A stretch of DNA of 21,687 bases, taken from IMG/VR virus record IMGVR_UViG_3300020159_004574, positions 1 through 21,687 of that record; one strand, written 5' to 3'. A program made the position numbers and the translations under genes. This document shows, piece by piece, positions 2 through 19,784 of this stretch. Below the pieces are notes generated by a model, which was not told where the DNA came from, ran no database searches, and worked only from the letters and a program-made list of their open reading frames with translations. Source of the stretch: a virus. Each line of letters begins with the position of its first letter. Position 1 is the first letter of the stretch.

Positions 2-1219
2 GCTGCCAAAAGCATGTGGACAGCAAGAATAAGCGCTCCTCAAAACATAGATCTTGTTATACCAACACCTTTTGATGTTTCTCTGGTAAACAATGGTGCT
101 GGCATTAACATCGAGTTGTTTCCAGCAGATCCTTTTAATAGGCCAATATATGACCAAGATATTGTGATTCCGGCTGGATCAATTTCAAATTCCAATATAG
201 TTGGATTGGAAGGACAAACATTTAATGATACTTTCATAGGTACTGGGGAAATAAACCAAAGTTTCCTCTTGAATTTTCTTCCAGTACTTTTGGATTCTAT
301 CAGAGTTGATGTTGATGGTCAAAGGTGGGAAAAAGTTGAGTATTTCACTGATTCACAACCAAGAAGAGAATATCGATTTGAATACAACTCAGACTTTAGT
401 GCTTTTATAATCTTTGGTAATAATCGTGCAGGACAAATTCCAACAGCCGGGGCGGTAATTACAGCCACATATAGAGTTGGTGGTGGCACAAATGGAAATA
501 TAGTAACAAATTTTGCCAATGTTGAAACGCTTGTTCCAATCGAGGGGCAAGATTTTAGTGTTTTGATAAATCTTTCAAACTACACTAGAGGCGAGTTTGG
601 GTATAATGGTGATACTGTAGAAGATATAAGAAGAAAGCTTCCTATTTACAACAGATCTCAAAACAGGGCTGTTACTGGTTCTGACTATAAATCAATATGT
701 GATCTTTTTGTAACTCCTTATAATGGTGTTATGGGTAAATCTGCTGTTGCTTTAAGACATGCAGGATGTTCTGCAAACATTATTGACATTTATGTATTAG
801 CAAAATCCGGTGATACAGGATTACAGATTGCTAATTCACAATTTAAAGCAGAACTGACAGATTACTTGAATGCCAAAAAGATGCTTACAGATTTTACATG
901 TCTTAAAGATGGGGTTGTTGTTTTAACATCAGTATTGATAGATGTTGTTTTAGATAAATATTATCGAACATTTGAGGAGACAATCAAAGCAAGAATTCAA
1001 AGTGCTCTTTCTGTGTTTTTTAATCTTGTGAATTGGGACTACGGTCAAACGCTTCGTGATACTGATGTGATTAAAGCCTTGTTCTCTGTGCAAGAACCAT
1101 ACAGGTATGATGTTACCTTGACCACTGCAAATCCTGATAATAGCGGCAAACAAGTCACAACTAAATACTTTGAGATTATAAGACCAGATACAATTGAAAT
1201 AGAGTTCCAGTACGAATGA
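2..1219 (+). CDS. Baseplate J / gp6-like baseplate wedge protein, 5' end outside window
   Basis: This is the C-terminal part of a baseplate wedge protein of the phage baseplate J (P2 gpJ / T4 gp6) family, which forms the ring joining the wedges around the tail hub. The frame is open to the left edge, so the in-frame ATG at 14 is probably an internal methionine and not the start. The family signature is the stretch around positions 620-700, where RRKLPIYNRSQNRAV is followed by a DY pair; this matches the usual 'R-L-P...R-A-V-T..D-Y' core of baseplate J proteins. A ferredoxin-like alternation follows (cysteine-containing strands, then the helix YLNAKKMLTDF, then VLIDVVLD), also typical of the C-terminal half. 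The gene ends six bases before the next gene, which carries a tail protein I-like domain. J followed by I is the standard baseplate order, and this supports the call. Confidence 0.82.
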   Translation, partial: AAKSMWTARISAPQNIDLVIPTPFDVSLVNNGAGINIELFPADPFNRPIYDQDIVIPAGSISNSNIVGLEGQTFNDTFIGTGEINQSFLLNFLPVLLDSIRVDVDGQRWEKVEYFTDSQPRREYRFEYNSDFSAFIIFGNNRAGQIPTAGAVITATYRVGGGTNGNIVTNFANVETLVPIEGQDFSVLINLSNYTRGEFGYNGDTVEDIRRKLPIYNRSQNRAVTGSDYKSICDLFVTPYNGVMGKSAVALRHAGCSANIIDIYVLAKSGDTGLQIANSQFKAELTDYLNAKKMLTDFTCLKDGVVVLTSVLIDVVLDKYYRTFEETIKARIQSALSVFFNLVNWDYGQTLRDTDVIKALFSVQEPYRYDVTLTTANPDNSGKQVTTKYFEIIRPDTIEIEFQYE

Positions 1220-1225
1220 TGAGGA

Positions 1226-4200
1226 ATGATGTTAAAAAAGTATTATGAGAACCCCAAAGTCACAGATGACATTGAGATTGACTTCTATACACCGGATGCA
1301 GACGGTTGTTTTGATATAGATCCGTATAAAGTTGATAACATTAAAATTTATTATATTATAAGAGACACTAACGGTGCCTTGAACGAACAGTCTTTTATAG
1401 ATCAATTTGATATAACAAGACAAAAAAGTTATTTGGAATCTCAACAATTAGCCTGTACTGATCCTACTGCTGAAAATATTGCAAATGCCGACCAGCTTAG
1501 AAGGGAATTTGAAGCAACCAGTATTTACAATACAACATTTTATTCTAGTTCACTGGTAGTTTTTAATAACGGGTCTTCTTCTAATCCCGTTTGGTTAAGA
1601 GGTACTGCAAACACAAATTCTATCATCACAAAAATTGTTGAGGCAGGTTCAGAAATACAAAATGGATATTTCAAATTTGTTTGGTCACCAAATGGAACAA
1701 TTAGAGAAGGTGATTATTATATCTGTTGGACTTGGACTCCAAATATTGCTGGAGACTCTTTTTCTTCTTATTTGCATTTTACTATAAGCAGTGATATAGC
1801 AAACGAAGTTAGCAACCCATCACATGTAATAAATAGTTCTCAATATAAAAATCTACTAGATTTATATTTGCCAGAAATGTATAAAATGTCATATGCAAAA
1901 GATGACATGACAGTTTCGACTTTAAATAATTTTAATGCATCTGTGGCTGAAGGATATACGGTTTTAGACAATTTGGCCGCTCAAGTAGTCGATATTATTG
2001 ATAGCAATGCAACTCAAGAACCAATACTTGGATATTTGGCTAATTTTTTTGGTTTGCTTTTGCGTTCTGATGATCCAACTTTGTGGAGAAGGCAGATCAA
2101 AAAAGCAATTCCTAATTTTAAACAGAAAGGAACTTATGATGGATTGCGTGGAGCTCTTTCTGATGCTGGAATTACACTAGAAAAATATACACAATATTGG
2201 CAGTGCGGCACTGATAACATTTATACAGAATATTTTAAATATGATGGGTCAAATTCTTGGGATTTAACAAAAACATCTTTAGCAGTTAATCCTACCTATT
2301 TCGAATTGGAAAAAAGATCGGCAACAGGCACTTATGCTGCAAGCAGTCTTTCAAACATTTCTATAACAACAGTCGATGGCATAAGCACTATGACTTGGGT
2401 AGGAGCACCTCTGGTTGCTGGGGATGTTATAAAAATACAATATCAGATCAAAGCCTTTACAAGCCCGGAATTAACAATATGGAACATTGTAAAAGATTTG
2501 CCACTAGCTGACCTTAGAGATGATAGAGACTTTGATTATCCTCCAAAAGATTGGAATACAAAATTAATATCAGAAGATGATGCTAATTTCAGTACTGTGA
2601 TTTCAACTAAAAACCCTTTTGTTAATTATCTTTATTTTGGCAAAGTTAGAACCAAATTTCCTTATAGTGAAAATGTTTACAACATGGATGAATACAATGG
2701 TTCTTTGAGAGATAGCCAAAATCCTTGCGATATTGACAAATCATTTTTAGAACCATGTCGTGGATTTATAAGTTCATACTATAGCCTAGATGTTGGAATT
2801 AGAGAATTGTCCAACGAAAGGCTGCAAGAAATTCAAGACATTATTGCTGAATATACACCTTTCCATGCTGTTCTGCATACTTTAAATTTCAGTGGTAATT
2901 TTGAAGATTTTATCATTCCTCCAGAAGAATCAATAGAGATGTTGGTTCAATATCAGACTACAGAGTTCATGATCACAGGCATGGCCCAAACAGTTTTCAA
3001 CCGTGCTATGTTCTTAGGATTGCAAAACAATGCGGTATTAAGAATCGATCTTGCCACGAATATGCTTGTGCCTTTTGCCATGCGTTCCAACGCTCTATAT
3101 GAAACTGATGGGCAAAAACTTGGGTTTTCAGACAAAGTAGGTCCAACACCTGAAGTTAAAATGTCTGACTTATATGAAAATCCATTATCTATCGATGAAT
3201 GGGTCTTTCAACAGACACCCGGTTTAACTCCTATACCTCCTTCTCCGGCACCTTCACCATCGCCCGCACCTAGCCCTGCACCTAGTCCTAGCCCTATTCC
3301 TGTTTTCACAGGCACAGCTACTGGTTATAATGACACAATAAACTTATATTGTGCTCAAGTTAATTTTCAGTCACTAGGAATATATTCTGACTCTAATAAG
3401 ACATTGCTTGAAATTCTTGGGCCAAGTTCTAATTCTGGTGAGTATGAGGTTGAAAATCCAAAAAATTCATATATTGGTGCAATAGGATCTATCACAGAGC
3501 CAATCAACACTGCACCTTTTACTTTCAATTTATCAAATATAAATTTGGCATCTTGGTCATTCACAGCGGCACAGGCAAATAAACATTCCATGTCAGATTC
3601 TGCATATAACTATGCAGATTATCCTATTACAACTCTTTGGGATGTCGCTCAAGGACATGCAGCTGCTGCTTGGCAAGTACAAATAGGCGCTACAGTTTAC
3701 GATATTGCCGATATAAGAAACAATATTTTATTAATTGAAGATGATGGTTCATTGAGTAATTCTGACGCAACAGGAGTTAACTATTCCTTGTTAAATCCAA
3801 CTGGGACAGAATTTAGTTCTACTTCTGGTGATTATACAGTGCAGGTACTTGGCAAAATCACAACAGGTGAGCCGGGAATAGACTCAGCAAGCCAAATAAT
3901 AGGAAACAATGGATATTTTTATTATGATTCTAATAACGAGCAATACAAGTTTAATTCCTATGATTCAGACGATCAACTATCATTTTATATTGACGATTGG
4001 GATGGGACGAATGGCAGCGTTACAGGGAAGGCTTTGACGAGATTGTTAACAGAACAAGTGGGTAATTTTGGTTATGCTGGCATGAAATTACTAAAACCAG
4101 TTGGTTTCCCTACATTTGCTGATCCCACAGATCCCAACGCCACAGAAACACAGAACTACAAAGAAAACTACATCATAGAAATAAATGGTAAAAATTATTG

Positions 4201-4531
4201 TGTGAACGATTATTATACAGTTGGTCCGAATATTTATTTAGACATAGCTGGAGAATTGATAAATATGGGAGTATCATCTGGTTCACCGCAGCCACTAAAT
4301 GTCTACAGATATAGCAAAGATACCATTGAGCTTTTTGGTGAAACACTAACAGATGTAAGCAGAAACGGTCAAGAACTTGTCAATCAAGTTGTTTCTTACG
4401 CTGCATCTATGATGTCTATGACTAATAATAAAAACAAAAATGGCATAAACGACAAGATAAATCAATATGAAGGTGTTAGTTTCAAAATAGAATACAATGA
4501 TGGTAGGACCACAACAGGAGAAATACAATGA
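1226..4531 (+). CDS. Tail protein I / gp7-like baseplate protein with a large linker-joined C-terminal extension
   Basis: The product is 1101 residues. Residues about 1-190 look like an immunoglobulin-like beta domain. Residues about 208-325 resemble phage tail protein I (P2 gpI; related to T4 wedge proteins): YLPEMYK opens the segment and DPTLWRRQIKKAIPNFKQKG, with a following GTYDGLRGAL, is the recognisable core. Residues about 665-693 are a Pro-Ser-Ala linker. Beyond it lie about 400 residues of an unrecognised beta-rich, Asn/Asp/Ser-rich region. P2 gpI is under 200 residues, so this protein is far longer and looks like a wedge core carrying an extra exposed module. Two methionine codons in tandem (1226 and 1229) could start it; GAGG at 1221-1224 is better spaced for 1229. 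The stop overlaps the next start (ATGA at 4528-4531), so translation is probably coupled. The tail protein I part is fairly sure; the role of the extension is unknown. Confidence 0.72.
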   Translation: MMLKKYYENPKVTDDIEIDFYTPDADGCFDIDPYKVDNIKIYYIIRDTNGALNEQSFIDQFDITRQKSYLESQQLACTDPTAENIANADQLRREFEATSIYNTTFYSSSLVVFNNGSSSNPVWLRGTANTNSIITKIVEAGSEIQNGYFKFVWSPNGTIREGDYYICWTWTPNIAGDSFSSYLHFTISSDIANEVSNPSHVINSSQYKNLLDLYLPEMYKMSYAKDDMTVSTLNNFNASVAEGYTVLDNLAAQVVDIIDSNATQEPILGYLANFFGLLLRSDDPTLWRRQIKKAIPNFKQKGTYDGLRGALSDAGITLEKYTQYWQCGTDNIYTEYFKYDGSNSWDLTKTSLAVNPTYFELEKRSATGTYAASSLSNISITTVDGISTMTWVGAPLVAGDVIKIQYQIKAFTSPELTIWNIVKDLPLADLRDDRDFDYPPKDWNTKLISEDDANFSTVISTKNPFVNYLYFGKVRTKFPYSENVYNMDEYNGSLRDSQNPCDIDKSFLEPCRGFISSYYSLDVGIRELSNERLQEIQDIIAEYTPFHAVLHTLNFSGNFEDFIIPPEESIEMLVQYQTTEFMITGMAQTVFNRAMFLGLQNNAVLRIDLATNMLVPFAMRSNALYETDGQKLGFSDKVGPTPEVKMSDLYENPLSIDEWVFQQTPGLTPIPPSPAPSPSPAPSPAPSPSPIPVFTGTATGYNDTINLYCAQVNFQSLGIYSDSNKTLLEILGPSSNSGEYEVENPKNSYIGAIGSITEPINTAPFTFNLSNINLASWSFTAAQANKHSMSDSAYNYADYPITTLWDVAQGHAAAAWQVQIGATVYDIADIRNNILLIEDDGSLSNSDATGVNYSLLNPTGTEFSSTSGDYTVQVLGKITTGEPGIDSASQIIGNNGYFYYDSNNEQYKFNSYDSDDQLSFYIDDWDGTNGSVTGKALTRLLTEQVGNFGYAGMKLLKPVGFPTFADPTDPNATETQNYKENYIIEINGKNYCVNDYYTVGPNIYLDIAGELINMGVSSGSPQPLNVYRYSKDTIELFGETLTDVSRNGQELVNQVVSYAASMMSMTNNKNKNGINDKINQYEGVSFKIEYNDGRTTTGEIQ
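3216..3306 (+). repeat. Pro-Ser-Ala linker inside the tail protein I-like gene
   Basis: In-frame PSP/PAP dipeptide repeats (residues about 665-693) separate the wedge portion from the C-terminal extension. The codons (ccttct, ccggca, cctagc, cctgca) are mixed, so the DNA repeat is imperfect. Such linkers are usually extended and flexible. The same style of linker occurs in two fibre genes of this window. Confidence 0.8.
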
Positions 4532-5004
4532 ATTTTTTGAATGATATTAAGTGTGTTGGAAGAGTTGAAGCATTTATTGAATATGCATCTGGCAAAAAGA
4601 TAGATATTTCTTTTGATAATACTGTTCTTACTTTGGGCAAAGTTGCATTGGCCAAAACACTTGCAAACGATGTTGGCACATATGGAAACTATTTTGTAAA
4701 TCGAATGGTTTTTGGCAATGGAGGTACCTACAGTGGGGAGCCAAGATTGGTAAGCCCTAGTCGTGCAGGTCTTTTTGGAGTGACTGTGGCAAACAAACCG
4801 GTTGTCGCTACTGTAAATCCTGATAATCAAACACAAGCTATTTTTACATCTACGCTTGCTTATTCAGATGCGAATGGGTATTCACTCAATGAAATGGCAT
4901 TGGTTCTTAATAATGGTGATTTTTATAGCATGGTAACTTTTCCAGATTTGTCTAAAACAAGCAGCATGCAAATTATTTTCAATTGGAATATAAATTTAGT
5001 TTAA
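4528..5004 (+). CDS. Small tail or fibre-associated structural protein
   Basis: The product is 158 residues. It is mostly predicted beta strand, has no signal peptide or membrane segment, and is rich in Asn, Gly and Val. The C-terminal third contains a pattern seen in phage tail-fibre-associated beta-sandwich modules: LNEMAL, then a strand ending in FYSMVTFPDL, then KTSSM and a final IIFNWNI strand. I recognise this as a recurring phage structural pattern but cannot name the family. The start overlaps the stop of the wedge gene, and a fibre-like gene follows after 27 bases. This places it between baseplate and fibres, and a small baseplate-peripheral or fibre-connector role is the reasonable inference. 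It could also be a free virion protein. Confidence 0.5.
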   Translation: MNFLNDIKCVGRVEAFIEYASGKKIDISFDNTVLTLGKVALAKTLANDVGTYGNYFVNRMVFGNGGTYSGEPRLVSPSRAGLFGVTVANKPVVATVNPDNQTQAIFTSTLAYSDANGYSLNEMALVLNNGDFYSMVTFPDLSKTSSMQIIFNWNINLV

Positions 5005-5031
5005 TTATATTAAAAAGGATATAAATAAGAT

Positions 5032-5814
5032 ATGCCTGACTTATCTAATATAACAGTACCACAATACTTGCCCAACCAACCTTATCATTATACATATGAT
5101 AATTTACCTATTGATGCTTTGGTCCAAAGAGATGATCTCATAAACAGTCAGGTTGATGCAAATACAAATTACATTTTGCAGTCATTCGGAACAGCAGGTA
5201 GCCTAGCAAACAGATTGAATCAATCTTTGGAAAACAACGGTGATTTAAAAACAACAGCCGTTAATACTGCCTTACACAATATTGGTGCTCACACTGACGG
5301 AAGTTATGGTGGCACAGATTATGTAAGAATGACTTTAGATGAAAGAAGCAAACTATCTTTAATAGCTCCAGAAGCAAAAAATATAGCTATAGAAATTGAC
5401 ACAGCATCTAACATATTATACTTTGATAATGGTACAGTTGTTTTTGAAAATTCGTCAACTATTACATGGTCGTCTGCTGGTGGTCAAAATTTAAGAGCAG
5501 ATGTTGCGGTAAGCTTGTCTAATCCACATCAGCACTATGATGGAATTGTACCAACCAGCGTTTCTTTAACACCTGATTACCAGAATTACCTTACAGGTCT
5601 TCCAACTGCTTTTACTGCTGGAAGTTTGAAGGTTTATATAAATGGTGTAAGAATTTTCGAAGGTTCTACCGTTTATGCTCCGACATCTGATCCTTTAACA
5701 GCATGGCAACAAAATTCATTTACAGAAAATGTTAACGGTCTTGGTTTTTCTCTGTTGAATGTAATAACATCTTCGGATATTATTATGATCGACTTTGAAG
5801 TACCACTGGGCTAA
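5032..5814 (+). CDS. Putative tail fibre / fibre adaptor protein
   Basis: The product is 260 residues. Three parts can be seen. An N-terminal segment (1-85) is rich in Asn, Gln and Asp with polar helices. A middle segment contains HNIGAHTDGSYGG and then MTLDERSKL, the kind of wording common in fibre shafts and adaptors. A C-terminal beta module (about residues 165-260) has NPHQHYDG, a strand pair around LKVYINGVRIF and a closing MIDFEVPL strand. The LKVYINGVR...IDF module recurs at the C-termini of phage structural proteins in my recollection. A ribosome site AAGGA (5015-5019) lies 12 bases before the ATG, a long spacing. The gene sits just ahead of the fibre cluster. Its attachment partner is not evident from the sequence. 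Confidence 0.5.
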   Translation: MPDLSNITVPQYLPNQPYHYTYDNLPIDALVQRDDLINSQVDANTNYILQSFGTAGSLANRLNQSLENNGDLKTTAVNTALHNIGAHTDGSYGGTDYVRMTLDERSKLSLIAPEAKNIAIEIDTASNILYFDNGTVVFENSSTITWSSAGGQNLRADVAVSLSNPHQHYDGIVPTSVSLTPDYQNYLTGLPTAFTAGSLKVYINGVRIFEGSTVYAPTSDPLTAWQQNSFTENVNGLGFSLLNVITSSDIIMIDFEVPLG

Positions 5815-5817
5815 AAA

Positions 5818-6336
5818 ATGCTTTATTGTGAAAAAGATCTGGATATAACTGTCGTCATAATAAGTGTCGATGGTGACTATTCAAAAATTGAAAAGACTTA
5901 TAATAGCACAAACTTCTTATCTAAAAATTACAAATCGATTGCCGTAATACCTGACGGCAGAAGCATTGAACCATGTAGCTGCAAAGTATACACAGGTGGT
6001 AATTGTATTACTTCTTTGATTGATTTTGGAATTGAAAAAGCTGATAGTGAATGGGCATACTGTGTATTTTCTGGTAGTGTTATAAAAAAATCTATTGATA
6101 AAAAATTAGGCAAATATGTTGAGACTGAAAAGGATGTGCTTTTTCCTGTCGTAAACAGGATTTGGAATTTTATTGATGGAAGCATGAATGGTATATTAAT
6201 TAACAAAAATTTTTATCAATCTGTCGGTAAATTTGGTTCTGGAAATACTTTACAAAATACTAAGTTAATGTGGGCTGAAAGAGCTTTGGAAAAAGGAGTT
6301 CAATTCAAAGCCATAGTAAACGCATGTAACCTTTGA
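5818..6336 (+). CDS. Degenerate family 2 glycosyltransferase-like (GT-A fold) protein
   Basis: The product is 172 residues. Its order of elements matches a short GT-A (family 2) glycosyltransferase domain. A first strand ITVVIISV is followed by a helix and a second strand IAVIPDGRS. GGNCITSLIDFGIEKADSEW then corresponds to the usual 'G...A.N.GI..A.GE' helix. A strand WAYCVFSGSVI stands where active enzymes carry the metal-binding DxD. NGILINKNFYQSVGKF corresponds to the usual 'G..li.r..f..vGgF' segment, and a helix with WAERALEKGV follows. The DxD position reads FSGS, so metal-dependent sugar transfer looks lost. At 172 residues it is also shorter than typical enzymes. The gene lies three bases after the fibre adaptor gene and has no clear ribosome site, suggesting coupling. 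It may be a structural or chaperone derivative of the fold. The fold call is inference from pattern only. Confidence 0.45.
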   Translation: MLYCEKDLDITVVIISVDGDYSKIEKTYNSTNFLSKNYKSIAVIPDGRSIEPCSCKVYTGGNCITSLIDFGIEKADSEWAYCVFSGSVIKKSIDKKLGKYVETEKDVLFPVVNRIWNFIDGSMNGILINKNFYQSVGKFGSGNTLQNTKLMWAERALEKGVQFKAIVNACNL

Positions 6337-6339
6337 GGA
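6335..6339 (+). promoter_or_regulatory. Ribosome binding site GAGGA deciding the start at 6345
   Basis: GAGGA overlaps the TGA stop of the preceding gene and lies five bases before the ATG at 6345. The alternative upstream TTG at 6333 has no such site, so 6345 is preferred. Confidence 0.7.
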
Positions 6340-6344
6340 TTCTT

Positions 6345-7001
6345 ATGTCCGAACCTGAATTAGTAGAAAAAGAATTAAATGAAATACTAGAAAAACACAA
6401 AATACTGCCTAAACATACAGATTTTCAAATTGAAAATTTTATGATTGGGAAGGAATTTACTCTTGCTGGCAGGGTTTGGCAGTGTGTCAGGGAACTATCG
6501 ACAAGGCAAGAAGCACTATTAAATATAAATTTGGAAATTGAAGAAACAAATGATAATTTGCAATTACAAGAAATAAAATACGAAAAACTTAAGTTAAAAA
6601 GCATATTTAATAAGAAAAAAGATATTCAAGCTTTAAACCAGAAACAAAAAGAAATATTTTTAAGAAAAAAAGAACGCCAAATAAGAGTTATCAAACAAAA
6701 ACAAGTTAGTTTAGATGAAAGAAAGAAAAGTATTGTTGCTGAATCAAGCAAAATTTTAGAATTATTCAAAAAATATAATCCAGAAAACAAAATCATAGAT
6801 ATTGAAGACAAAAAAAACCAATTGGATTATTGGAATGAAAAATTAGATCAAGAGCTTGGTCTTACTTCTGTTCTGGGACATCCACTGAGCATGGAATTAG
6901 TGCGGTCTGTTTTGGCTTTGCCAAATGAGGCTCCTGTTAAAATGCAAATGAATTTGGCCTTAGAAAATGCAGGTAAAAAACTACTGAATCAAAGTAACTA
7001 A
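6345..7001 (+). CDS. Coiled-coil protein of unknown function
   Basis: The product is 218 residues from the ATG at 6345; an in-frame TTG at 6333 would add four residues but lacks a ribosome site. Residues about 45-155 are almost wholly charged and helical, with dense Lys, Glu and Gln and regular hydrophobics (for example around ELSTRQEALLNI and KKERQIRVIKQKQ). This indicates a long, probably coiled-coil, helix. A short N-terminal segment with an FMIGKEFTL motif and a C-terminal segment with GHPLSMELVRSVLALP look more globular. There is no signal peptide and no membrane segment. The gene lies between the glycosyltransferase-like gene and the fibre array. A small helical protein in such a place might assist fibre assembly or be a virion component; nothing in the sequence decides this. 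I do not recognise the family. Confidence 0.6.
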   Translation: MSEPELVEKELNEILEKHKILPKHTDFQIENFMIGKEFTLAGRVWQCVRELSTRQEALLNINLEIEETNDNLQLQEIKYEKLKLKSIFNKKKDIQALNQKQKEIFLRKKERQIRVIKQKQVSLDERKKSIVAESSKILELFKKYNPENKIIDIEDKKNQLDYWNEKLDQELGLTSVLGHPLSMELVRSVLALPNEAPVKMQMNLALENAGKKLLNQSN

Positions 7002-7004
7002 ACT

Positions 7005-8027
7005 ATGGCAAACAGCAAACTAACATCATATGACATTGGATATTTATCAGGTGATTTGTCTATATTTCCAGAAGCTATAGACAGCTACGATAATTTATAC
7101 GAAGCCAAAAATCTGTCGATGACTACATTGACACAGACTTTGGGCTTTAATGGTAAAATTATTGTTGTGGATGATACTACAAATTTCCCAGATAAAGGAA
7201 TTTTAAGGATAAGTCTACCGAATTATCAGGGACTTACCACAGAGCTTATTTATTATGAAACAAAAACACAAAACACTTTTCAAAATTTAATCAGGGGATT
7301 CTGTGCCACCCGACAGTCACCATGGCCAGTTGGTTGTAAAGTTGAAGCCGGTGTCATGGCCGAGCATCACAATGCAGCAAAAGATGCTGTTTTGAAAATA
7401 GAACAAACTATTGGAACTGTATCAGAAACATCCACTACAACATTAAATGGTTTGCTCAAACAACAGGAAGCAAGATATCTGGCTCCCAAAGCAATATTCA
7501 GAGCCTATCCTCTTAAAGGCCCTGCACCAATGACGGTAAACTTCCATAATTTTTCCAGCAGTATTGCTACAAGATTTTTTTGGGATTTTGGTGATGGAGG
7601 TTCTTCTTTTGAAAAGAGTCCAACACACACTTATCTCACAGAAGGAAATTTCACTGTTCAACTGCGTGTTATTACAGAACTTGGCGGACAAGGATTTTCT
7701 ACAAAGACAAATTATGTTCAAATAAGCAACGAGTATGTTGATCCATTTTTCTATACTACACCGGAAATTGGATATTCAAGTGAATATGCGGCCAAATATG
7801 GCGGCAGCCCAACAGTCTTTAAATTCATAGACCAAACGAATGCAACAATATCTAATAGGCTTTGGCAATTTGATGATGGCACAAATTACTTTGCACTTGA
7901 TCCTAATGAGCATGTGACTACTCACATTTATGCAAAACCCGGCACCTACAAGCCATCTCTGCTGATTGGGCTTGAGGGCCAACAAGTTCTTCGTGTCTTC
8001 TCAACTTCTTCGATTCAGGTGGAATAA
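7005..8027 (+). CDS. Fibre protein with AEHHN attachment module and two PKD-like domains
   Basis: The product is 340 residues. Residues 1-160 form the N-terminal module shared with the next three genes. It has a DNLYEAKN element, a beta region around IIVVDDTTNFP and LIYYETKTQNTF, and then VMAEHHNAAKDAV with an IEQTIG helix. Residues about 161-242 are a PKD-type beta sandwich: GPAPMTVNF, the hallmark WDFGDGGSS, then HTYLTEGNFTVQLRV. A second, weaker PKD-like unit occupies about 250-338, with LWQFDDGT and HIYAKPGTYKPSLLI. PKD domains are Ig-like spacers or adhesion modules of extracellular proteins. No obvious ribosome site precedes the ATG, so coupling to the upstream gene is likely. The stop TAA shares its last A with the next ATG. 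This is probably a short structural fibre or a scaffold for longer ones. Confidence 0.7.
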   Translation: MANSKLTSYDIGYLSGDLSIFPEAIDSYDNLYEAKNLSMTTLTQTLGFNGKIIVVDDTTNFPDKGILRISLPNYQGLTTELIYYETKTQNTFQNLIRGFCATRQSPWPVGCKVEAGVMAEHHNAAKDAVLKIEQTIGTVSETSTTTLNGLLKQQEARYLAPKAIFRAYPLKGPAPMTVNFHNFSSSIATRFFWDFGDGGSSFEKSPTHTYLTEGNFTVQLRVITELGGQGFSTKTNYVQISNEYVDPFFYTTPEIGYSSEYAAKYGGSPTVFKFIDQTNATISNRLWQFDDGTNYFALDPNEHVTTHIYAKPGTYKPSLLIGLEGQQVLRVFSTSSIQVE

Positions 8028-10279
8028 TGGCTCCTATTGTAAAATTCGATAGTGAATATGATGATGACACAAGCCTTTACACAGTTAAAGATTCTGCATA
8101 TCTTGTCTTGTCAAAAGATTATAATCCCGGTGACACATCGATTACCGTAGACCTTGACACAGAAAAAAACTTTTTATTTCCATCCACCGGAATTATCACT
8201 CTTGTTGAACAATGTTCTGATCCAGCTAATCGTGCCGTTTCTTTTTATTATACTTCCAGAACAGATACCACATTTGATGGACTGACTGTTTTGAATTTCA
8301 CCCCAGATACTTACAAACCATCCAGACAGACAACTGTTGTAATGAATGTGATGGCAGAACATCACAATAATTTAAAAGATGCAATTATAGCAATACAAAA
8401 CTTTGTTGGAATAAAAGATCTACCCGGATCACTATCGACAGTAAACACTGGCAAACTCGAAGAAAGAACAAATTTTTTAATAAGCAAGGCTTTTGAACCT
8501 AAAGCTTGGTTCACAGTAAACAAGCGCATAGGCCTTGCCCCATTCACAGTACAATTTTCCAACCAGTCTGTCAGACTTGGAGAAGATATTCCAGACAACA
8601 CCATAAACTTTTATTGGGATTTTGGAGACAATACTGCAAGCAATATCGGGTACTATGAAACAACAGAAACTGTACCATCTGGAGTACTTGATGTAATAGT
8701 GGAAGATACCGATGCTGGAACCATAACAAAAACTTACACAAGAACTGGTACATTCACTGTAAAACTTACCGTCACTAATAAGTACGGAAGTGACACGGTT
8801 GAGTTTGTTGATCTAGTTAATGCTAAATATGAAGCACCAGATGTTGCCGTTGTAACTTTCAACGCCACGGGAATTCAACAATGTCTTCCATCTGAAGGCA
8901 ATTGCCAAGTATTCAAAACCCCAACAGGACAGCAAGTAAGCTTGGAAATTCCAAGTGGAATCAATCCAGAAACTAACAGAACATATTCCGGTGAAGAACT
9001 TGATGGATCTGGGAATCCCATTGATCCAATAGTCACATATACTTGGTTGCTTTCTGATGATACAGGACATGGAAACGATCAAACTACAACAGCACTTTAT
9101 ACCATTGGAGGTTTAAAGGATGTAGTTGTTCGTTGTGATACGGAAAGCCAAGCGTATCGAATTACGACCTATAATTCTTTCATAGATGTTGTAGAAAGAC
9201 AAAATTTGTGGTTGTCAACATTCTTCAGCAATTCCAGCACTGTGATTCAGACATCAGAGTTTGGACTCATAAGTGAAACTTTCAAAACCAAACAATCACA
9301 AACAAGCACATTAACTATTAATACAAGCTTTTTGTCTACTGCAACAAATGCAACACAGCTGATAAAAGAATTTAGGAAAAACACAAATTTCACAAACAGA
9401 GCAAACATATCATCTGGCTTGGCTGGCGCAGCCGTATTACACTATGCAACAGGAAGAGGCAGTGAAGTCATTTCAGACGAAAAAATAAATGCCTTACAAT
9501 ATAATGGTTATTTGGAGTCTTATTCTGCGTTTCAGATTATTACACGACCTTGGAATTGGGTTTGTTTTAACTTTTTGAACAAATCTTATTTCATGTTTGG
9601 AAATCTAACCACTACACAGAATACCGGAGAATCTAAAACCAATTTGACATTGCAAACACATGACCTTTTGTCTAATACAGTTTTAAGTTCTTCGTTTAGT
9701 GCAAGCGACTTTGCCGGTAATGCCACAGAACTGCTTAACAACGCAGCCCAATTTAATTCTTCTGGGCAACCTATTTATGGTAATTTCAGCGCATACAGAA
9801 CAGCTTGGAGAGACAGAAGCGGATACATACTAAAAAATAATGGTGTTGGGGACTTTTTCAGACTAAAGTCATTCTTTTCAACATCTAGCACAGCAGCAAA
9901 TGCCATTGCAAGCTTTAACAAACTTCCTGACATTCTTGGTCCTACCAAATACGAAGGGGAACTAGTTAATTTGACTAGCGGTTTATTCTTCTTCAACAAT
10001 ACAGGCGCTGTTTCTTCTTATATTCCAACAGAGCAAACATGGAGAACCGGAGGGCCGGGACTAAACTCTGCTGTGTTTGCTGCTTTGCAAGATCCAACAG
10101 TAGTTGGATATGACAACGATACAAATACACTTCTTGCAACCAGCGATGGGGACAGAAGAGCATATTTGAGTTTCGACTATACTAACAAATCTTTGCTGAA
10201 GTTCAATGATCTTGATCTGACTTTTACAAAACTTCCAGATAGACCTAGTGGAACCCAGTGGAACATGGGAGTATTCTAA
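8027..10279 (+). CDS. Fibre protein with AEHHN module, PKD domains and a degenerate propeller-like C-terminus
   Basis: The product is 750 residues. The N-terminal module (1-155) begins with a YDDDTSLYTV element and ends with VMAEHHNNLKDAI and a FVGI helix. PKD-type domains follow at about 157-262 (GLAPFTVQF, YWDFGDNTAS, RTGTFTVKLTVTN) and, more loosely, 272-390 (YTWLLSDDTGHG). The first has a roughly 30-residue insertion between the FGD motif and the final strands. Residues about 390-750 contain loosely repeated strand groups (KSYFMFGN, RSGYILKNNG, SGLFFFNNTG, NTLLATSDGDRRAYLSFD). These suggest a diverged beta-propeller, but the repeats are too weak to count blades. The start overlaps the previous stop (TAATG) with GGTGGA just upstream. 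The protein is probably a mid-length fibre on the same attachment platform as its neighbours. The N-terminal and PKD calls are firm; the propeller is tentative. Confidence 0.68.
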   Translation: MAPIVKFDSEYDDDTSLYTVKDSAYLVLSKDYNPGDTSITVDLDTEKNFLFPSTGIITLVEQCSDPANRAVSFYYTSRTDTTFDGLTVLNFTPDTYKPSRQTTVVMNVMAEHHNNLKDAIIAIQNFVGIKDLPGSLSTVNTGKLEERTNFLISKAFEPKAWFTVNKRIGLAPFTVQFSNQSVRLGEDIPDNTINFYWDFGDNTASNIGYYETTETVPSGVLDVIVEDTDAGTITKTYTRTGTFTVKLTVTNKYGSDTVEFVDLVNAKYEAPDVAVVTFNATGIQQCLPSEGNCQVFKTPTGQQVSLEIPSGINPETNRTYSGEELDGSGNPIDPIVTYTWLLSDDTGHGNDQTTTALYTIGGLKDVVVRCDTESQAYRITTYNSFIDVVERQNLWLSTFFSNSSTVIQTSEFGLISETFKTKQSQTSTLTINTSFLSTATNATQLIKEFRKNTNFTNRANISSGLAGAAVLHYATGRGSEVISDEKINALQYNGYLESYSAFQIITRPWNWVCFNFLNKSYFMFGNLTTTQNTGESKTNLTLQTHDLLSNTVLSSSFSASDFAGNATELLNNAAQFNSSGQPIYGNFSAYRTAWRDRSGYILKNNGVGDFFRLKSFFSTSSTAANAIASFNKLPDILGPTKYEGELVNLTSGLFFFNNTGAVSSYIPTEQTWRTGGPGLNSAVFAALQDPTVVGYDNDTNTLLATSDGDRRAYLSFDYTNKSLLKFNDLDLTFTKLPDRPSGTQWNMGVF
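8347..8368 (+). repeat. 22-bp segment identical to 16698-16719
   Basis: The segment encoding VMAEHHN in the 750-residue fibre gene is identical over 22 bases to the equivalent segment in the 834-residue fibre gene, about 8.3 kb away. The flanking bases differ. It marks shared ancestry of the N-terminal modules. Confidence 0.85.
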
Positions 10280-10288
10280 AGGAAAAAA

Positions 10289-13200
10289 ATGCCAACATTA
10301 TTCCCTCCACAAACTATTTATCCTCAGGATTATGATAGCGACCGCACACTCTACCAAGTGTACAATACTTCTGAAACAATCCTAATATCCGATTTGGAAA
10401 CTTGGGCAACAACTATATCAATTAGACCAGTCGATATAGACCAACAAGAAATTTGGGGAGAAAATGGATTTGTTACAATAGAAAACGAACTTATATATTT
10501 TGAATCTGTACAAAAAGATGCAAACAACAAGATAAATGTTCTTACAAATTGCATAAGAAATTTGGGCGGTTCATCTCCGAAACATTATACAGCAGGCACT
10601 GATGTTCGTGGATTTGTAATTGCCGAACACCACAACCAAATTGCAAGATCTGTTGTAAATACTGAAAATTTTATTGGCATCAGTCTTTCTCAAAACAAAA
10701 CAACATTAGATTGGAGAATTCGTAATCTTGCGGCACAAGGAGCAGTTGTAGATGACTATGGATGCCCTGAGGTAAATTTCAGTTTTTACATAGCAAGTGA
10801 AACCAGTAATGAAGTCGTAATAAATTATGAACTAGAAATAAACGGAACATTTGATAGCTTTTTACTAGAGTTTGGAGACGGACAAAGTACCACTACTGTC
10901 CAGTCTGGCACGCATAGCTATTCTCCAAACATTATTATTGATCCTACAGTAACAGTTATAGCAACAAATTGTGAACAAGTTGTAAGCGGAGTAAGCAGAG
11001 AACAAGTAAGTCAGCCATTGCAACAGCAAATACCAATAGATCTGAATGTTGTAGTTCCAACAGTGCCCGTTCTCCCTGAAATACCAATATCATTTCAAAA
11101 TACTGTAAACAACCAACTTCTTTTGCCCCCTATTGTTTTTCCATGTGTCGAAACTGGATTTGGTCCAATATCTGTGCCATCTGTAATAACAATTACTCCT
11201 CCTTTGATAATACCAAGCAGTATTGATTTTATTAATCCTCCAAATATCCCAAGCACTATTGTAATCAATCCAGTTGATCTTCTTTTGCCAAGCCAAATTT
11301 ATGTTGAAGGAATTTGCGGACCAACACCGCCAATACCAGCACCAGAACCTAGCCCTTCACCTTCACCTTCACCTTCACCTTCACCTTCACCTTCACCTTC
11401 ACCAGCACCAGCACCTTCACCAGCACCTGCACCAGCGCCCGCACCAGCGCCTTCACCTTCACCTAGCCCTTCACCTTCTCCTAGCCCTTCACCTTCTCCA
11501 TCACCATCACCTTCTCCATCCCCATCACCTTCGCCATCCCCTAGCCCTTCGCCTTCGCCCACGCCAAGCGGAGATGAACCAACGCCGCCAACTCCTGTTC
11601 CCGACATTGTGCCAACACCGCCATCACCTGTTCCTGCTCCTACTCCTTCTTTTCCTTTTAGTTGTGGACAATATGGATATTTTGCTGGTGGTTTGACTGG
11701 AGGAACTGTAAGCAGTGGTGTAAACTATATTGATAGGCTGAATTTTTCTAACGATACTCCAACGCTGCTTGGTTCATCTAATCTTTTTTATGCAAGAACC
11801 GGTACAGTAGGAATATCTGGAGCAGTTACCAGAGCCTATTTTATGGGTGGCCTAAGAGCAGATCTTAGTGGAATAACAAGCTATACAGATGTTTTTGATT
11901 ACGATAGTGAAACAACATCGATTTCTAATTCAGCAGACTTGAAAACCAAGAGAGACACGGCAATAGGAGTTTCCGAGGGTCTTACTAAAGGCTATATTGC
12001 TGGCGGAGATACCAGCGCTAGCGTGAATGTAAAATCTACTGAGAAAATAGTTTTTTCAACTGATACAACTGTAGCATCAACTAGCCTCGAACTTGCAAAT
12101 GCCAAGGTGGATAGTTGTGGACTTGATGGAAGCAGCACAAGAGGCTATTTGCTTGGAGGATACACTTCAGCAGTATCTGCGACAACCGAATACATCGACT
12201 ACTCAAACGACACAAAGATAAATGCTGGTCCTGCCGTACTTTCTGTAGCCAGATCAGGATGTGGTGGAATAGCAGCCACAGAAGCCAAGGGGTATGTTTG
12301 CGGCGGTGAAAATGGTGCTACTTCTACACTTTATGCAATTACAGATATTATTGATTTTGCCACTGGTAGTAGATCTAACAATGCATCCGCAAATCTAGAC
12401 AGACAAGTTGCTGGCTCTGCTGGAACAAGCAATAGGCAAAGCGCTGGATTTATAGGCGGTGGTGTAACAGATTCTGGGTCTGGACTCATAATAACTAATG
12501 CCATAGACAAGATGAGTTTCACAACAGATAGTTCCAGCACTATTGGCTCAACATTTGCAGTTGGCAGAAACGGTTGGTCAGCTGTTGCCAAATTATGTCG
12601 TCCATTGACAGGAGATGGTGGTTATTTTGTCGGTGGAAGTTACAATTGGGATGGATTTTTTGCTAGCTATACTGCAACTACTGATAAAGTGATATTCTCA
12701 GCAGACACAAGCATGGCTATGACCACCGCCAACCTTACGCAAGCCAGAGATTCATTTGCAAGTATTAATGGCACCCAATACCGTGGTTATTTTGCCGGTG
12801 GATATGATGAATCTTTTGTAAACTTAACAGAAAAATTAATTTATGCAAATGAATACACATCAGCAGCAACAACTGCAAATTTAACTTCTCCAACTCACGG
12901 CGCATGTGGCCTTACAGATGGATATACCAAAGGGTATGTTATTGGTGGTTATCAAAAATCAGAGTCGGTCATAACAAACAAAATTTATAAAATTACATAT
13001 TCAACAAACGAGACAATAAGTGAATTGACTACTGCTAGGCTTGCTACTGGTCTGGCATATTTGGCATCTGTTTCTGACAATAAAACACAGGGATACTTGG
13101 CAGGTGGACTGGCAGGCACTGTAAAAATAGACTCTTGTGGAGTCATGAATTTTTCTCAAGATACATTGACAGAACTAACTAGCAAATACTTGTCTTCTCC

Positions 13201-16200
13201 AAGAAGTGAACTTGCCGGACTAGATGGTAATTCTACTAAAGGTTATTTTGCTGGAGGTGATACCGCTAATTATAAGTCCGTAACGAATATGGACATTTTG
13301 ACTTATGCAACTGGAAGTTTTGCTCATTCTAATGAAGCCAAATACAATCTGCAAACTGTAAAAGCTGGTTTAGCAGGTGTGTCTGAAAGAAAATCTAAAG
13401 GTTATTTTGGTGGTGGATCTAGCGGCGTTTTTGTGACAAGTCCTTTGACAGACAAAGTTTCTTTTGCAACAGGTGTTGTTACAGCAACAGAAACTGCAAA
13501 TCTGACAAAATCCAGAACCTATTTGGGTGGTGTTTCAAAAATAACTGACACAATCAATAATGATGGAGCCTATTTTGTAGGTGGATATACAGCATCTCCC
13601 AATACTAAAATCACAGAAAAAATAATTTACGCTGGTGATATTTCAATTTATCCGTATACTGCTAATTTAGAACAAAATCGTGCCTATTTAGCTGGCATAT
13701 CGAATCCAGATCTTGCAGGTTACATAGCAGGCGGCACATCCTCTTTAATTACATCATTTGTCCCAGTTAACACCATGGACAAGATAACTTATGCCACAGA
13801 TCAAAGATCTGCTGTTGGATCGCTTGTATTGCCAGCAAGCACTTATGGCCTAGCAGGCTGTAGCGGCTCTAAGGATGAAGGTTACTTTGGTGGAGGCAAT
13901 ACTGGGGCTTTTACAAACAAAATTTATGTATTTGATTATGCCACCGAGCAGATAGAATTGATGTCTATCGATACACTGGACTCAAACCGAGCATTTGTTG
14001 CTTGTATATCAGATGGATACTCTAAAGGTTATTGGGCTGGAGGCAAAGGAGGCTTGGGAAGTGTAAAAACAATCGAAGTACAAGATATTGCTACGGGAAC
14101 CTTGTCTTCTACTGGAACATTTATTTTATCTGCAGACACATCGAATGTGACCGGAAGTGATGGGAATGGTATAGAAGGATTTTTTGCAGGTGGTTTATTA
14201 AGCACTGGAGCAACGAAAGTCATTAATGTATTAAGTTACACAACTGGAACCTTTCTTGCAACTAATCCGCAACTTTCTTTAGCTAAACATAGCATGGGTG
14301 GGGCTGCTAACAATGACAATAAAGGTTACTTTTCTGGTGGTTCTTCCAAATCAGATGCAACAAGCTTTATTAAAAAGACTGAGATTATAGAGCATATTAC
14401 TTATGCTATGTCTACACCAAAATCTGCCGAACTAGATTATGGCAGGAGTTGTTTGACAGCTGTATCAAGTAAAAGAAACACATTGCCTCCAGCAAAATGT
14501 GGAACATATACATATAGTTCCAACATAGCAGATGATACACGCTATTTTAATGTAGATCCAAAAGCTAATATCCAGTATCTTTATTTTAATAAAAATGAAA
14601 ACAATTCAACAAGATTTATTGTATTTGACAACTTTAGTAACATATATGTTGATACTGGTTATACAGGAAATATACCAGCTGGATGCGACAGTCCAGAGCA
14701 AACAACATGGAACAGTGCTTATTATTTCTACTTTTTTAAAGCACAAAATGCTACTCGCATAGGCGTTCGGGCAATATCAGCGTGTACCGAAATTAAATGG
14801 AATTATAATTTAAATTGTAATAACAACGAGTACACAAATTTAAGTGGTTTACCGGGTTATAGATCAAATATAAATGTTTCTGATAAAATTTTTAGTCTTG
14901 GCGGTTATCTGGGAGTTCCAACAACAGTTTTTTCTCTTATATATATTGGAATAACTCCAAATTCGACAGCTGTATCTGTTGACAGCTTCGAGTCTGGATC
15001 TTATTATTATAGTGGTAAATGGAAAAGTATGTGGAGGGATTCTTCTCATGCAGCAGCTTTAGATATAAATAATACATTTTATATGATTGGTTATAACCAA
15101 TATGGACAACTGGGCAATGATAATACAGCTTTAGTATTATCAAATTTAATTCCTTACCCACAATTAGGAAAAGTTATTGATTATTCGATTCGTTATTATT
15201 CCACACATGTAATATTAGAAAATAATGATATGTATGCAACAGGTCTTAATAACTATGGACAACTTGGTGTTGGAGATACTGTAAATAGGTATAAATTTAC
15301 TAAAGTACCGGGAAAATGGAGATATGTTAATATTTCATATTGGTGGAATAACATATCGGTTGCTATAGATATCGATGGGTTTTTATATTTTGCTGGAATT
15401 ACTGGTGCCTTTTCTTATTTTAACAAAATTACAGATTATATTTGGAAAGAAGCAGTTGGTGCCAATAATTATTATAATAATTATTATACTAATAATAGAA
15501 TATTAGGAATACGAGGGGATGGAGTTATTTGTTTAATAAAAATTAATTATACTTATAGCAATGGTTCTTATGTATTAAATCCTGCTGAAGTCATACCATA
15601 TGGAACTAAAAATAATTGGAAAAATATTGATTATTTAGTAAGGGGCAACAATGATCTCTATTATGTAACAGATTCTTTAGATGATATGTATATAGTTAAA
15701 ATTAACGATCCAATTTCTTATACATTATATGATATTACAAAAATGAATGTTGACTGGAGAACTCATCCTCCAAAATTTCGTGTAGGAAAAAATGAAATAC
15801 ATACAGTGATTCCTCCAGACTATGTTTTTGCAAATGCCATGAACATGGATGGATCAAATGCACTACAATTGACAGAAAAAACAAAAGACATAGTGCAGCA
15901 AGAATCTTCAACAAAATTGAATATATGTCGTTTTGCAGGCAGAACACCTTTGCAGATGGTAAATAGCGTTCATGGGAAAGTTGCTATTCGCAGGTGTGAT
16001 ATTTTGGGATTCTGTTGTCATTCATCTTCTTTGCCAAAAAGGCCTGAAGTTGTTTGTTGCCAGACTTGTGACAAATATCAGGAAGATGAAGAAAATCCAC
16101 AAACAGTTTTAGTCACACAAAGAGAAGAAATACTGATTGATAGCGTGCAAATACCCAAGCCTCCAGAACCTCCAGATCCATTTAGCATGGAGTTGCCATA

Positions 16201-16375
16201 CAGACCAATGCCTCCCATGGATCCTAATATGTTTGGCAGGCCGATTCATGCCAGCGAGATTGAGTATAAGGATCTTTCAGACATATATAATTCAGAAATA
16301 CAAGACATGAACGGCTTCAAAATTAAGCCAGTAGATGATCTTAGGCCTGATGTGAACGACCTTCTTGGAGAATAA
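10289..16375 (+). CDS. Giant tail fibre (2028 residues): AEHHN module, shaft, Pro linker, 18 kelch-like blades, RCC1 propeller, Cys-rich C-terminus
   Basis: The domain order can be read directly. Residues 1-150 are the shared N-terminal module ([30 protein letters not shown]). About 155-240 is a PKD-like unit with LLEFGDGQS. About 292-340 is a shaft of IPS/VPS-type repeats. About 343-457 is a long Pro-Ser/Ala linker. Residues 459-1403 hold 18 kelch-like blades, each with a GYFAGG-type glycine pair. About 1404-1525 is a beta domain opened by CGTYTYS. About 1531-1834 contains RCC1-type repeats, clearest at NQYGQLGND and [10 protein letters not shown]. About 1876-1932 is Cys-rich (seven Cys). 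The last ~95 residues are Pro-rich and acidic and end in [14 protein letters not shown] (10278-10283) lies five bases before the ATG, and the stop overlaps the next ATG (TAATG). It is most likely a receptor-contacting tail fibre; the receptor is unknown. The RCC1 section looks more AT-rich than its surroundings. Confidence 0.82.
10541..10561 (+). repeat. 21-bp segment identical to 16624-16644
   Basis: A 21-base identity between the N-terminal modules of the 2028- and 834-residue fibre genes, about 6.1 kb apart in direct orientation. It encodes LTNCIRN in both. Confidence 0.85.
10658..10677 (+). repeat. 20-bp segment identical to 16741-16760
   Basis: A second direct-repeat identity between the same two genes, encoding NTENFIG in both. 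It lies about 100 bases after the 21-bp identity in each gene, so the two genes are collinear here. Confidence 0.85.
11162..11300 (+). other. Short fibre-shaft repeat segment
   Basis: Residues about 292-340 of the giant fibre have the strand-turn pattern 'I-P-S-x-I' every 11-13 residues ([33 protein letters not shown]). The paralogue has the same segment at 17251-17390 starting at nearly the same residue number. Regular strand-turn repeats of this size are what fibrous shafts such as beta-spirals show; the actual fold is not established. Confidence 0.5.
11318..11655 (+). other. Long Pro-Ser/Ala/Thr linker between shaft and propellers
   Basis: About 113 residues of alternating Pro with Ser, Ala or Thr, with the motif PSPSP dominating and a short non-repetitive break (SGDEP). 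The segment separates the attachment half of the fibre from its distal propellers. It is GC-richer than the flanking sequence because of its Pro and Ala codons. Confidence 0.85.
11354..11401 (+). repeat. Perfect hexanucleotide tandem repeat (CCTTCA)x8
   Basis: Eight uninterrupted copies of CCTTCA encode Pro-Ser dipeptides at the start of the linker. Later copies (cctagc, ccttct, ccatca) are diverged. Each unit is six bases, so gain or loss of copies by slippage would change linker length without breaking the frame. Confidence 0.92.
11663..12613 (+). repeat. Kelch-like blades 1-6 (propeller 1) of the giant fibre
   Basis: Residues 459-775 contain six units of about 50 residues. Each begins with a GY-x-x-GG-type motif (YFAGG, YFMGG, YIAGG, YLLGG, YVCGG, FIGGG), followed by a D-K/D-x-I-x-F/Y strand and an NL..AR...G helix-like turn. 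The sixth unit ends in a non-repeat stretch (KLCRPLTGD) before the next unit. Confidence 0.8.
12614..13561 (+). repeat. Kelch-like blades 7-12 (propeller 2) of the giant fibre
   Basis: Residues 776-1091, 316 long. The first blade begins DGGYFVGG and the sixth ends with the non-repeat stretch SKITDTINN. Glycine-pair motifs are YFVGG, YFAGG, YVIGG, YLAGG, YFAGG and YFGGG. Confidence 0.8.
13562..14497 (+). repeat. Kelch-like blades 13-18 (propeller 3) of the giant fibre
   Basis: Residues 1092-1403, 312 long. The first blade begins DGAYFVGG, matching the opening of propeller 2. Glycine-pair motifs are YFVGG, YIAGG, YFGGG, YWAGG, FFAGG and YFSGG. The last blade is longer and runs into the CGTYTYS domain. 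Confidence 0.8.
14879..15790 (+). other. RCC1-type propeller domain of the giant fibre
   Basis: Residues about 1531-1834. Clear RCC1 repeat wording occurs twice ([15 protein letters not shown] and [16 protein letters not shown]), with weaker units before ([10 protein letters not shown]) and after ([11 protein letters not shown]). RCC1 repeats build a beta-propeller distinct from kelch. The DNA here appears more AT-rich, with many TTA, ATA, AAT and TAT codons, than the kelch region just upstream. Confidence 0.75.
15464..15487 (+). repeat. 12-bp perfect tandem duplication in the RCC1 domain
   Basis: AATAATTATTAT occurs twice in tandem, encoding NNYYNNYY in frame, and is followed by ACTAATAAT (TNN). 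It lies in what should be a loop of the RCC1 propeller. Confidence 0.9.
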
Positions 16376-18879: not shown

Positions 18880-19784
18880 TGACCATTAAAAAAATGAATT
18901 TAAAATCCTTGAATGCAGTCAATGCGGAAGGAAAAAGAGAAAGTTTTACTTTCAGAATCGATGAATCAAGAAATGAATATATTGGTGTAGAAGAATATTG
19001 GATAAGAAATTTTGGCAAACCTAGTGTAAGCCCAATTGATATAAATAATTTATATGATGATAAAGAAATACACATTCTCATAGATAATGAATTAAAAAAT
19101 TCAAAAATTAATATGCCAAACTTGTTAGAAGAAAATTTTTCTTTTGATAATGTTTTGATTATTAATGATGGTTTTGGTTTTGATAAGCATGCTGATTTGT
19201 TGTCTGAATTGACAGATGACTGGTGTGTAATTTGTATTAGAAATGCAGCACGATATTGGCAAGCAGTAAAATTTCCTGATTTTTTACTTGTTCAAAACCC
19301 TTTCAATACCTGCTTGAGCCAAATGCCTGACAGGCAGTTTCCAAAACTTATAGTAAGCCGCAGAACAAACACTAGATTTGTTGTAGGATACAGAAATGTC
19401 AAATATGTATATGATGCGGTTTGTGATCGAAAATACCAAAGCCCCTACGCTAAAGCATCTAAAACTTATATTGATGAATATAGAAATCCAATATGTGCTG
19501 CAATAGGATGTGCTTTTAACTTTAATGCAAAAAATATATTTTTAGCATATTGTTCTGATGCTTATAAAGAAACTAGGCCGGGTTCTATTGAAATTTCAGA
19601 AAACTTATTTTGTTATCCACAACAGGTTCTTGCTAACAAAATTGTAAATGCAAATTTATTTTGGCAAAAATTTACAAACATAAATTGTAATATATTTTAT
19701 ACAGGTGTAAAAAATTCATTTACATTTGCTAAATATTTACAACACGATGAGTTTAAAAATAGGCTAGGAACAGGATTGGTTTGA
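18879..19784 (+). CDS. Rossmann-like protein resembling MptE/DUF115 (Maf-type) domains
   Basis: The product is 301 residues from the ATG at 18879, which overlaps the preceding TGA; AGGT at 18870-18873 is suitably placed. The core starts near residue 85. NVLIINDGFGFDKHADLL corresponds to the first Rossmann strand, glycine turn and helix. WCVICIRNAARYWQ and FPDFLLVQNP correspond to the second strand, helix and the 'Pd..v..Dp' element. NPICAAIGCAFNFNAKNIFL, followed by AYCSDAY, corresponds to the 'a...A..lG...I.L.G.D' element. This order is that of the MptE-like DUF115 fold, known from archaeal pterin enzymes and from Maf proteins linked to flagellin glycosylation. The match is by pattern, without an alignment, and some canonical residues differ (DGFGF instead of GAGPS). 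It lies directly after the fibre genes. A role in modifying fibres is a guess from position and fold. Confidence 0.4.
   Translation: MTIKKMNLKSLNAVNAEGKRESFTFRIDESRNEYIGVEEYWIRNFGKPSVSPIDINNLYDDKEIHILIDNELKNSKINMPNLLEENFSFDNVLIINDGFGFDKHADLLSELTDDWCVICIRNAARYWQAVKFPDFLLVQNPFNTCLSQMPDRQFPKLIVSRRTNTRFVVGYRNVKYVYDAVCDRKYQSPYAKASKTYIDEYRNPICAAIGCAFNFNAKNIFLAYCSDAYKETRPGSIEISENLFCYPQQVLANKIVNANLFWQKFTNINCNIFYTGVKNSFTFAKYLQHDEFKNRLGTGLV

Follow-up and report, generated by a model that had tools for sequence, protein, structure and literature searches.

A probable pseudo-glycosyltransferase encoded in the baseplate–fibre operon of uncultured large phages

Pseudo-enzymes are well known in cells, and the GT-A fold is known too. 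The core of GT-A glycosyltransferases is recognised by the DxD motif, the xED motif, the G-loop glycine and a C-terminal histidine (PMC7185993). Some GT-A families lack the xED aspartate (PMC7185993), and the GT14 enzyme C2GnT-L and the bacterial GT6 enzyme BoGT6a are active without DxD (PMC3961637). Among viruses, the moraphages, a group of large aquatic phages, carry four putative glycosyltransferase orthogroups in their core genome (2025, PMC12619734). These phages have T4-like baseplates with gp6 and gp25, and it was BLASTp and HHpred that named these core proteins glycosyltransferases; no statement on dead catalytic motifs or on a tail location was found in that paper. A search confined to open-access papers likewise yielded no account of a GT-A fold among the baseplate and fibre proteins of phages. 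Here, we describe a glycosyltransferase-like (GT-like) gene which may correspond to one of the moraphage orthogroups. What is new is neither the pseudo-enzyme nor the fold, but a lineage-wide, probably dead copy within a tail operon.

The window, by which we mean the whole 21.7-kb IMG/VR stretch analysed (21,687 nucleotides), holds one long co-directional run of tail genes:

14–1219, plus strand: gp6-like wedge protein of the baseplate, cut off by the window edge; conserved upstream gene
1226–4531, plus strand: baseplate protein with a Tail_P2_I domain; conserved upstream gene
4528–5004, plus strand: fibre-adaptor-like protein (weak Phage_tail_fib match; phrog_5417, phrog_9521); conserved upstream gene
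5032–5814, plus strand: 260-aa module protein, present in most relatives but not all
5818–6336, plus strand: probable GT-A-fold pseudo-glycosyltransferase, 172 aa (from model, profile alignment and gene context)
6333–7001, plus strand: 222-aa coiled-coil-like protein; conserved next gene, used as the unbiased probe
7005–8027, plus strand: PKD-domain protein with the N-terminal domain common to the fibre genes
8027–10279, plus strand: PKD-domain protein, 750 aa
10289–16375, plus strand: fibre-like protein, 2028 aa, with a Pro/Ser-rich linker and repeats
16375–18879, plus strand: kelch-repeat fibre-like protein, 834 aa

The GT-like open reading frame was found exactly as a sequence-only reading of this DNA had placed it, and stops close the frame on the opposite strand. 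Three bases separate it from the upstream gene, and it overlaps the downstream frame by four bases; if the downstream gene starts instead at its next ATG, the GT-like frame lies directly before it, with GAGG in between. In viral contigs, iterated profile scans located 75 loci, and with a neighbour-gene scan added the family comprises at least 89 distinct sequences, all on contigs of uncultured large phages of up to 595 kb. The sole INPHARED record with the gene is likewise from an uncultured phage (LR756511.1, 595 kb). A narrow-pattern scan of 84,980 bacterial and archaeal genomes returned no relative, and the window protein alone retrieved nothing usable from Pfam, PHROGs or PDB sequence searches. 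In seven closely related pairs with unsaturated divergence (dS below 1), dN/dS is about 0.06–0.13, which indicates purifying selection on the protein. With its homologues, its dN/dS and a fixed gene order, the frame is a real gene and not a chance one.

The predicted structure argues strongly for a GT-A fold. Structure prediction from the protein sequence by itself reached a pLDDT of only 31, and an AlphaFold2 model built on an alignment of 53 homologues has a pLDDT of 93.6 and a pTM of 0.89. When this model was compared with the PDB by Foldseek, the leading matches were GT-A glycosyltransferases throughout: the fucosyltransferase WrtF (E = 6.7e-8), the Leptospira structure 6p61 (E = 1.3e-7), GalNAc-T2 (query-normalised TM-score up to 0.76), the K4 chondroitin polymerase and TarP. 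The one plain non-sugar-transferase in the first 50 matches is the nucleotidyltransferase IspD, at a lower TM-score. In a viral structure library the best matches are GT2 proteins of phages and giant viruses. Profile alignment, which is independent of the structure, agrees: when the family was aligned by hhalign with ten canonical GT2s encoded by phages of this group, the two stayed in register over 162 columns, the whole length of the protein, at a score of 34.8. None of 22 controls, reversed or with permuted columns, scored above 15.5. The alignment shows the protein to be a homologue of GT2. The fold had been proposed from the order of strands and from residues which are correctly cited, and no better match to another fold appeared. 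Going by the model, we regard a GT-A fold as close to certain.

One could still argue for a generic Rossmann-like protein with no glycosyltransferase relative. Identity to glycosyltransferases in the structural alignments is only 7–18%, and no member of the family passes a curated Pfam or NCBIfam cut-off. Single-sequence matches to glycosyltransferase models are indeed weak and confined to few of the 53 homologues: TIGR04283 is matched by nine (best E = 0.00099), a rhamnosyltransferase model by three, Pfam Glycos_transf_2 by two (best E = 0.011) and EpsE by one. Yet the leading structural matches are GT-A proteins rather than other Rossmann proteins, and the GT2 profile aligns in full-length register. 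We therefore consider a generic Rossmann origin very improbable.

Comparison with the nearest enzymes shows both what the protein shares with them and what it has lost. With WrtF and the GT2/PF00535 proteins (Leptospira 6p61, phage GT2s, the E. coli K4 chondroitin polymerase) it shares the succession of strands and helices along the entire domain, together with the G-loop glycine, the NxG element, the strand leading into the DxD loop and, in most relatives though not in the window's member, PxxN. Unlike them, it lacks DxD, the xED aspartate and the C-terminal histidine, has a shorter stretch between DxD loop and G-loop, and is encoded in a tail operon. The GT27 polypeptide GalNAc-transferases give the highest query-normalised TM-scores, at an identity of only 9–16%. 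GT27 enzymes carry a DxH motif, a metal ion and a lectin domain, and differ from the GT-like protein in these respects. The positions that bear on catalysis are as follows:

6052–6054, plus strand: W79, start of the strand before the DxD loop; invariant (89/89)
6067–6078, plus strand: residues 84–87 (FSGS), which align with the DxD loop of active GT-A enzymes
6187–6192, plus strand: N124-G125, the likely G-loop equivalent, assigned by sequence alignment rather than coordinates; G125 in 87/89
6262–6264, plus strand: K149, where active enzymes have the catalytic xED aspartate; K in 80/89, R in 8/89, Q in 1/89
6271–6273, plus strand: W152, in the helix of the xED motif; invariant (89/89)

Across the family the DxD loop reads mostly [ASE]-G-[STAV]; none of the 89 sequences has DxD, and one has a single Asp. 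The replacement of the metal-binding aspartates at FSGS, read from this one sequence, thus holds for the family. Their exact column, proposed to be SGS, depends on the alignment: ungapped over the strand, DxD falls on F84-S85-G86, and only a one-residue shift brings it to S85-G86-S87, with no acidic pair in either case. The earlier reading had also overlooked two further losses. The xED aspartate, located by a gap-free alignment counted back from G160, is replaced by K149, and residues 165–172 of the family alignment hold no conserved C-terminal His. Other residues are invariant or nearly so (W79, W152, F163, K164, G137, A156, P110, F118, N124, D106). The catalytic residues have thus been replaced by others that are themselves conserved, and have not simply decayed.

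This loss of motifs argues against ordinary metal-dependent sugar transfer. It is not proof of inactivity, since some active GT-A enzymes lack DxD and others the xED aspartate. The protein could be an active GT-A enzyme that needs no metal and adds sugar to fibre or baseplate proteins as they are assembled; conserved Lys or Arg residues would then do the work of the metal, as they do in GT14 and bacterial GT6. The basic residues at positions 96, 149 and 164 hardly vary among the 89 sequences, and K96, K149 and K164 could neutralise a diphosphate. The G-loop glycine, PxxN and NxG also persist in most members, and a few relatives have genes for sugar enzymes inserted near the slot. GT14 and GT6 enzymes, however, keep donor-site residues and a catalytic Glu, and have been shown to be active, whereas the GT-like family has no conserved acidic residue after strand 2 (the nucleotide-base site), in the DxD loop or at the xED position. 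The stretch from DxD loop to G-loop also falls about 30 residues short of that in a canonical phage GT2 (39 residues, versus about 70 in the GT2 of L089). Candidate acceptors, in the form of mucin-like Pro-Ser/Thr fibre linkers, occur in just 5 of 51 non-redundant loci with the gene, the window's relatives included, and are found in loci without it as well. On balance, we think an active enzyme unlikely, if the most substantial of the alternatives. For the same reason, namely that such linkers are found in few loci and also where the gene is absent, we rejected glycosylation of fibre Pro-Ser linkers as a general rule.

Gene context places the protein in the tail. Complete loci have the order gp6, Tail_I, adaptor, (260-aa gene), GT-like, coiled-coil, PKD, PKD, fibre, with every gene on the same strand. 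Wherever the GT-like gene led to a complete locus, it lay in the same baseplate/fibre slot. The position between a fibre adaptor and the fibres, noticed in the window alone, is thus a fixed one. A T4-like cyanophage and a Streptomyces phage, both with related gp6, have no annotated GT-like equivalent nearby. Because the first loci had been found through the GT-like gene, we repeated the sampling with the downstream coiled-coil gene as an unbiased probe; the fibre adaptor has no conserved block that could serve as a scan probe. Of the resulting 80 loci, which are not independent because they include near-identical contigs, 75 have the gene and one more has its end at the contig edge (76/80). 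Four contigs from two lineages lack it. In one lineage (L137/L138) the neighbours close up where the gene is missing. In the other (L184, a 144-kb contig, and L182) the slot is judged by eye to be filled by two genes, one long, glycine-rich and fibre-like, the other small and fibre-assembly-like; in L184 this replacement spans 2997–5899, its fibre-like product has 857 aa with Thr/Pro linkers, and no GT-like copy is found elsewhere on the contig.

The gene is single-copy in all 17 records of 105–595 kb that carry it, two of which are near duplicates, and 8 of 12 large records with it encode canonical GT2s elsewhere in the genome. Pairwise divergence of the protein tracks that of gp6, Tail_I, the adaptor and the coiled-coil protein (Mantel r 0.62–0.80, 0/999 permutations), which indicates that the gene is inherited with the tail module. 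It belongs functionally to the tail and is not strictly required. Since it is dispensable and another fibre gene fills its slot in one lineage, a role in adsorption or fibre attachment is favoured over one in the central baseplate; the replacement in L184 and L182 points to attachment.

These observations suggest that an old glycosyltransferase has probably become a part or helper of the phage attachment machinery. The GT-like protein is produced from the baseplate/fibre operon and has been passed on with that module. Most likely, the old donor cleft and its surroundings would now bind either a partner tail protein or a glycan, and the protein would act at the baseplate–fibre junction, as a small component of the adsorption apparatus without catalytic function or as a helper in its assembly. 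We infer an absence of catalysis, a location in the virion and a binding partner for the protein. Taken as a whole, this reading, in which a pseudo-glycosyltransferase has been put to new use in the adsorption apparatus, whether as a binding or scaffolding component or as an aid to assembly, has, in our estimate, a probability of about 0.58. Of the roles first suggested for the gene (a sugar-binding structural part, an assembly factor or an atypical enzyme), none drops off the list; the evidence favours a non-catalytic role in adsorption or assembly, and does not separate a part from a chaperone.

It is also conceivable that the protein stays out of the virion and is an assembly factor or chaperone on which the fibres depend for their folding or attachment. 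Its small size and its slot among fibre genes would suit such a factor, as would its loss or replacement in two lineages, in one of which other fibre genes hold the slot, and the same reading as a dead enzyme is compatible with it. Against this, its divergence keeps pace with that of its structural neighbours (mean identity 0.38, versus 0.37–0.52), as would be expected of a virion part too, and there is no positive sign of a chaperone function. We rate this alternative as rather improbable. In a bolder version of the repurposing idea, a whole lineage of huge phages would have built the former glycosyltransferase into the virion as a non-catalytic, receptor-binding lectin of the baseplate, its donor cleft reshaped to recognise a glycan on the host surface. 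This version is speculative and to our minds just as doubtful.

A glycosyltransferase that is dead yet conserved, and encoded within the tail operon of large phages, would be a clear case of a viral pseudo-enzyme, and the GT-like protein offers a testable way into how uncultured huge phages attach. The case also calls for caution with genes of huge-phage core genomes that are labelled "glycosyltransferase" automatically, as the label may conceal tail proteins without enzymatic activity.

Several other features of these operons deserve mention. Four successive proteins of the window (7005–18879) have a common N-terminal domain with the motif AEHHN, probably a shared domain by which they dock onto the baseplate. 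The tail module closes (18876–19784) with a gene for a 302-aa protein remotely similar to MptE-like/DUF115 proteins, a second enzyme-like fold in the same operon; PF01973 is matched by 9 of 10 relatives (best E = 8.6e-6), with all listed scores below the cut-off. Homologues occur in 17 of 21 related phage records, two of them without the GT-like gene. A functional link between the two genes was considered and set aside, because two L184-type records have kept the MptE-like gene while losing the GT-like one, so that no coupling is seen.

Further genes lie around the GT-like gene in its relatives. An opposite-strand gene resembling nucleoside 2-deoxyribosyltransferase lies nearby in L005 (8528–9037, minus strand), with similar genes in about 75 loci by motif count; in the loci inspected, it sits between the GT-like and coiled-coil genes. 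Inserts whose products by eye resemble homing endonucleases repeatedly flank the gene on either side (L005:6980–8020, L007:8492–10006, L067:6184–7170, L021:9033–9929), and a transposase-like gene, also identified by eye, is inserted beside it in L179. Other inserts beside the slot encode a protein resembling UDP-glucose dehydrogenase by eye (L079:2985–3839), a DUF3431 protein (L044:8815–9441) and a DUF3131/glycoamylase-like protein (L013:8546–9736). The presence of sugar-enzyme inserts in these few relatives fits a glycan context.
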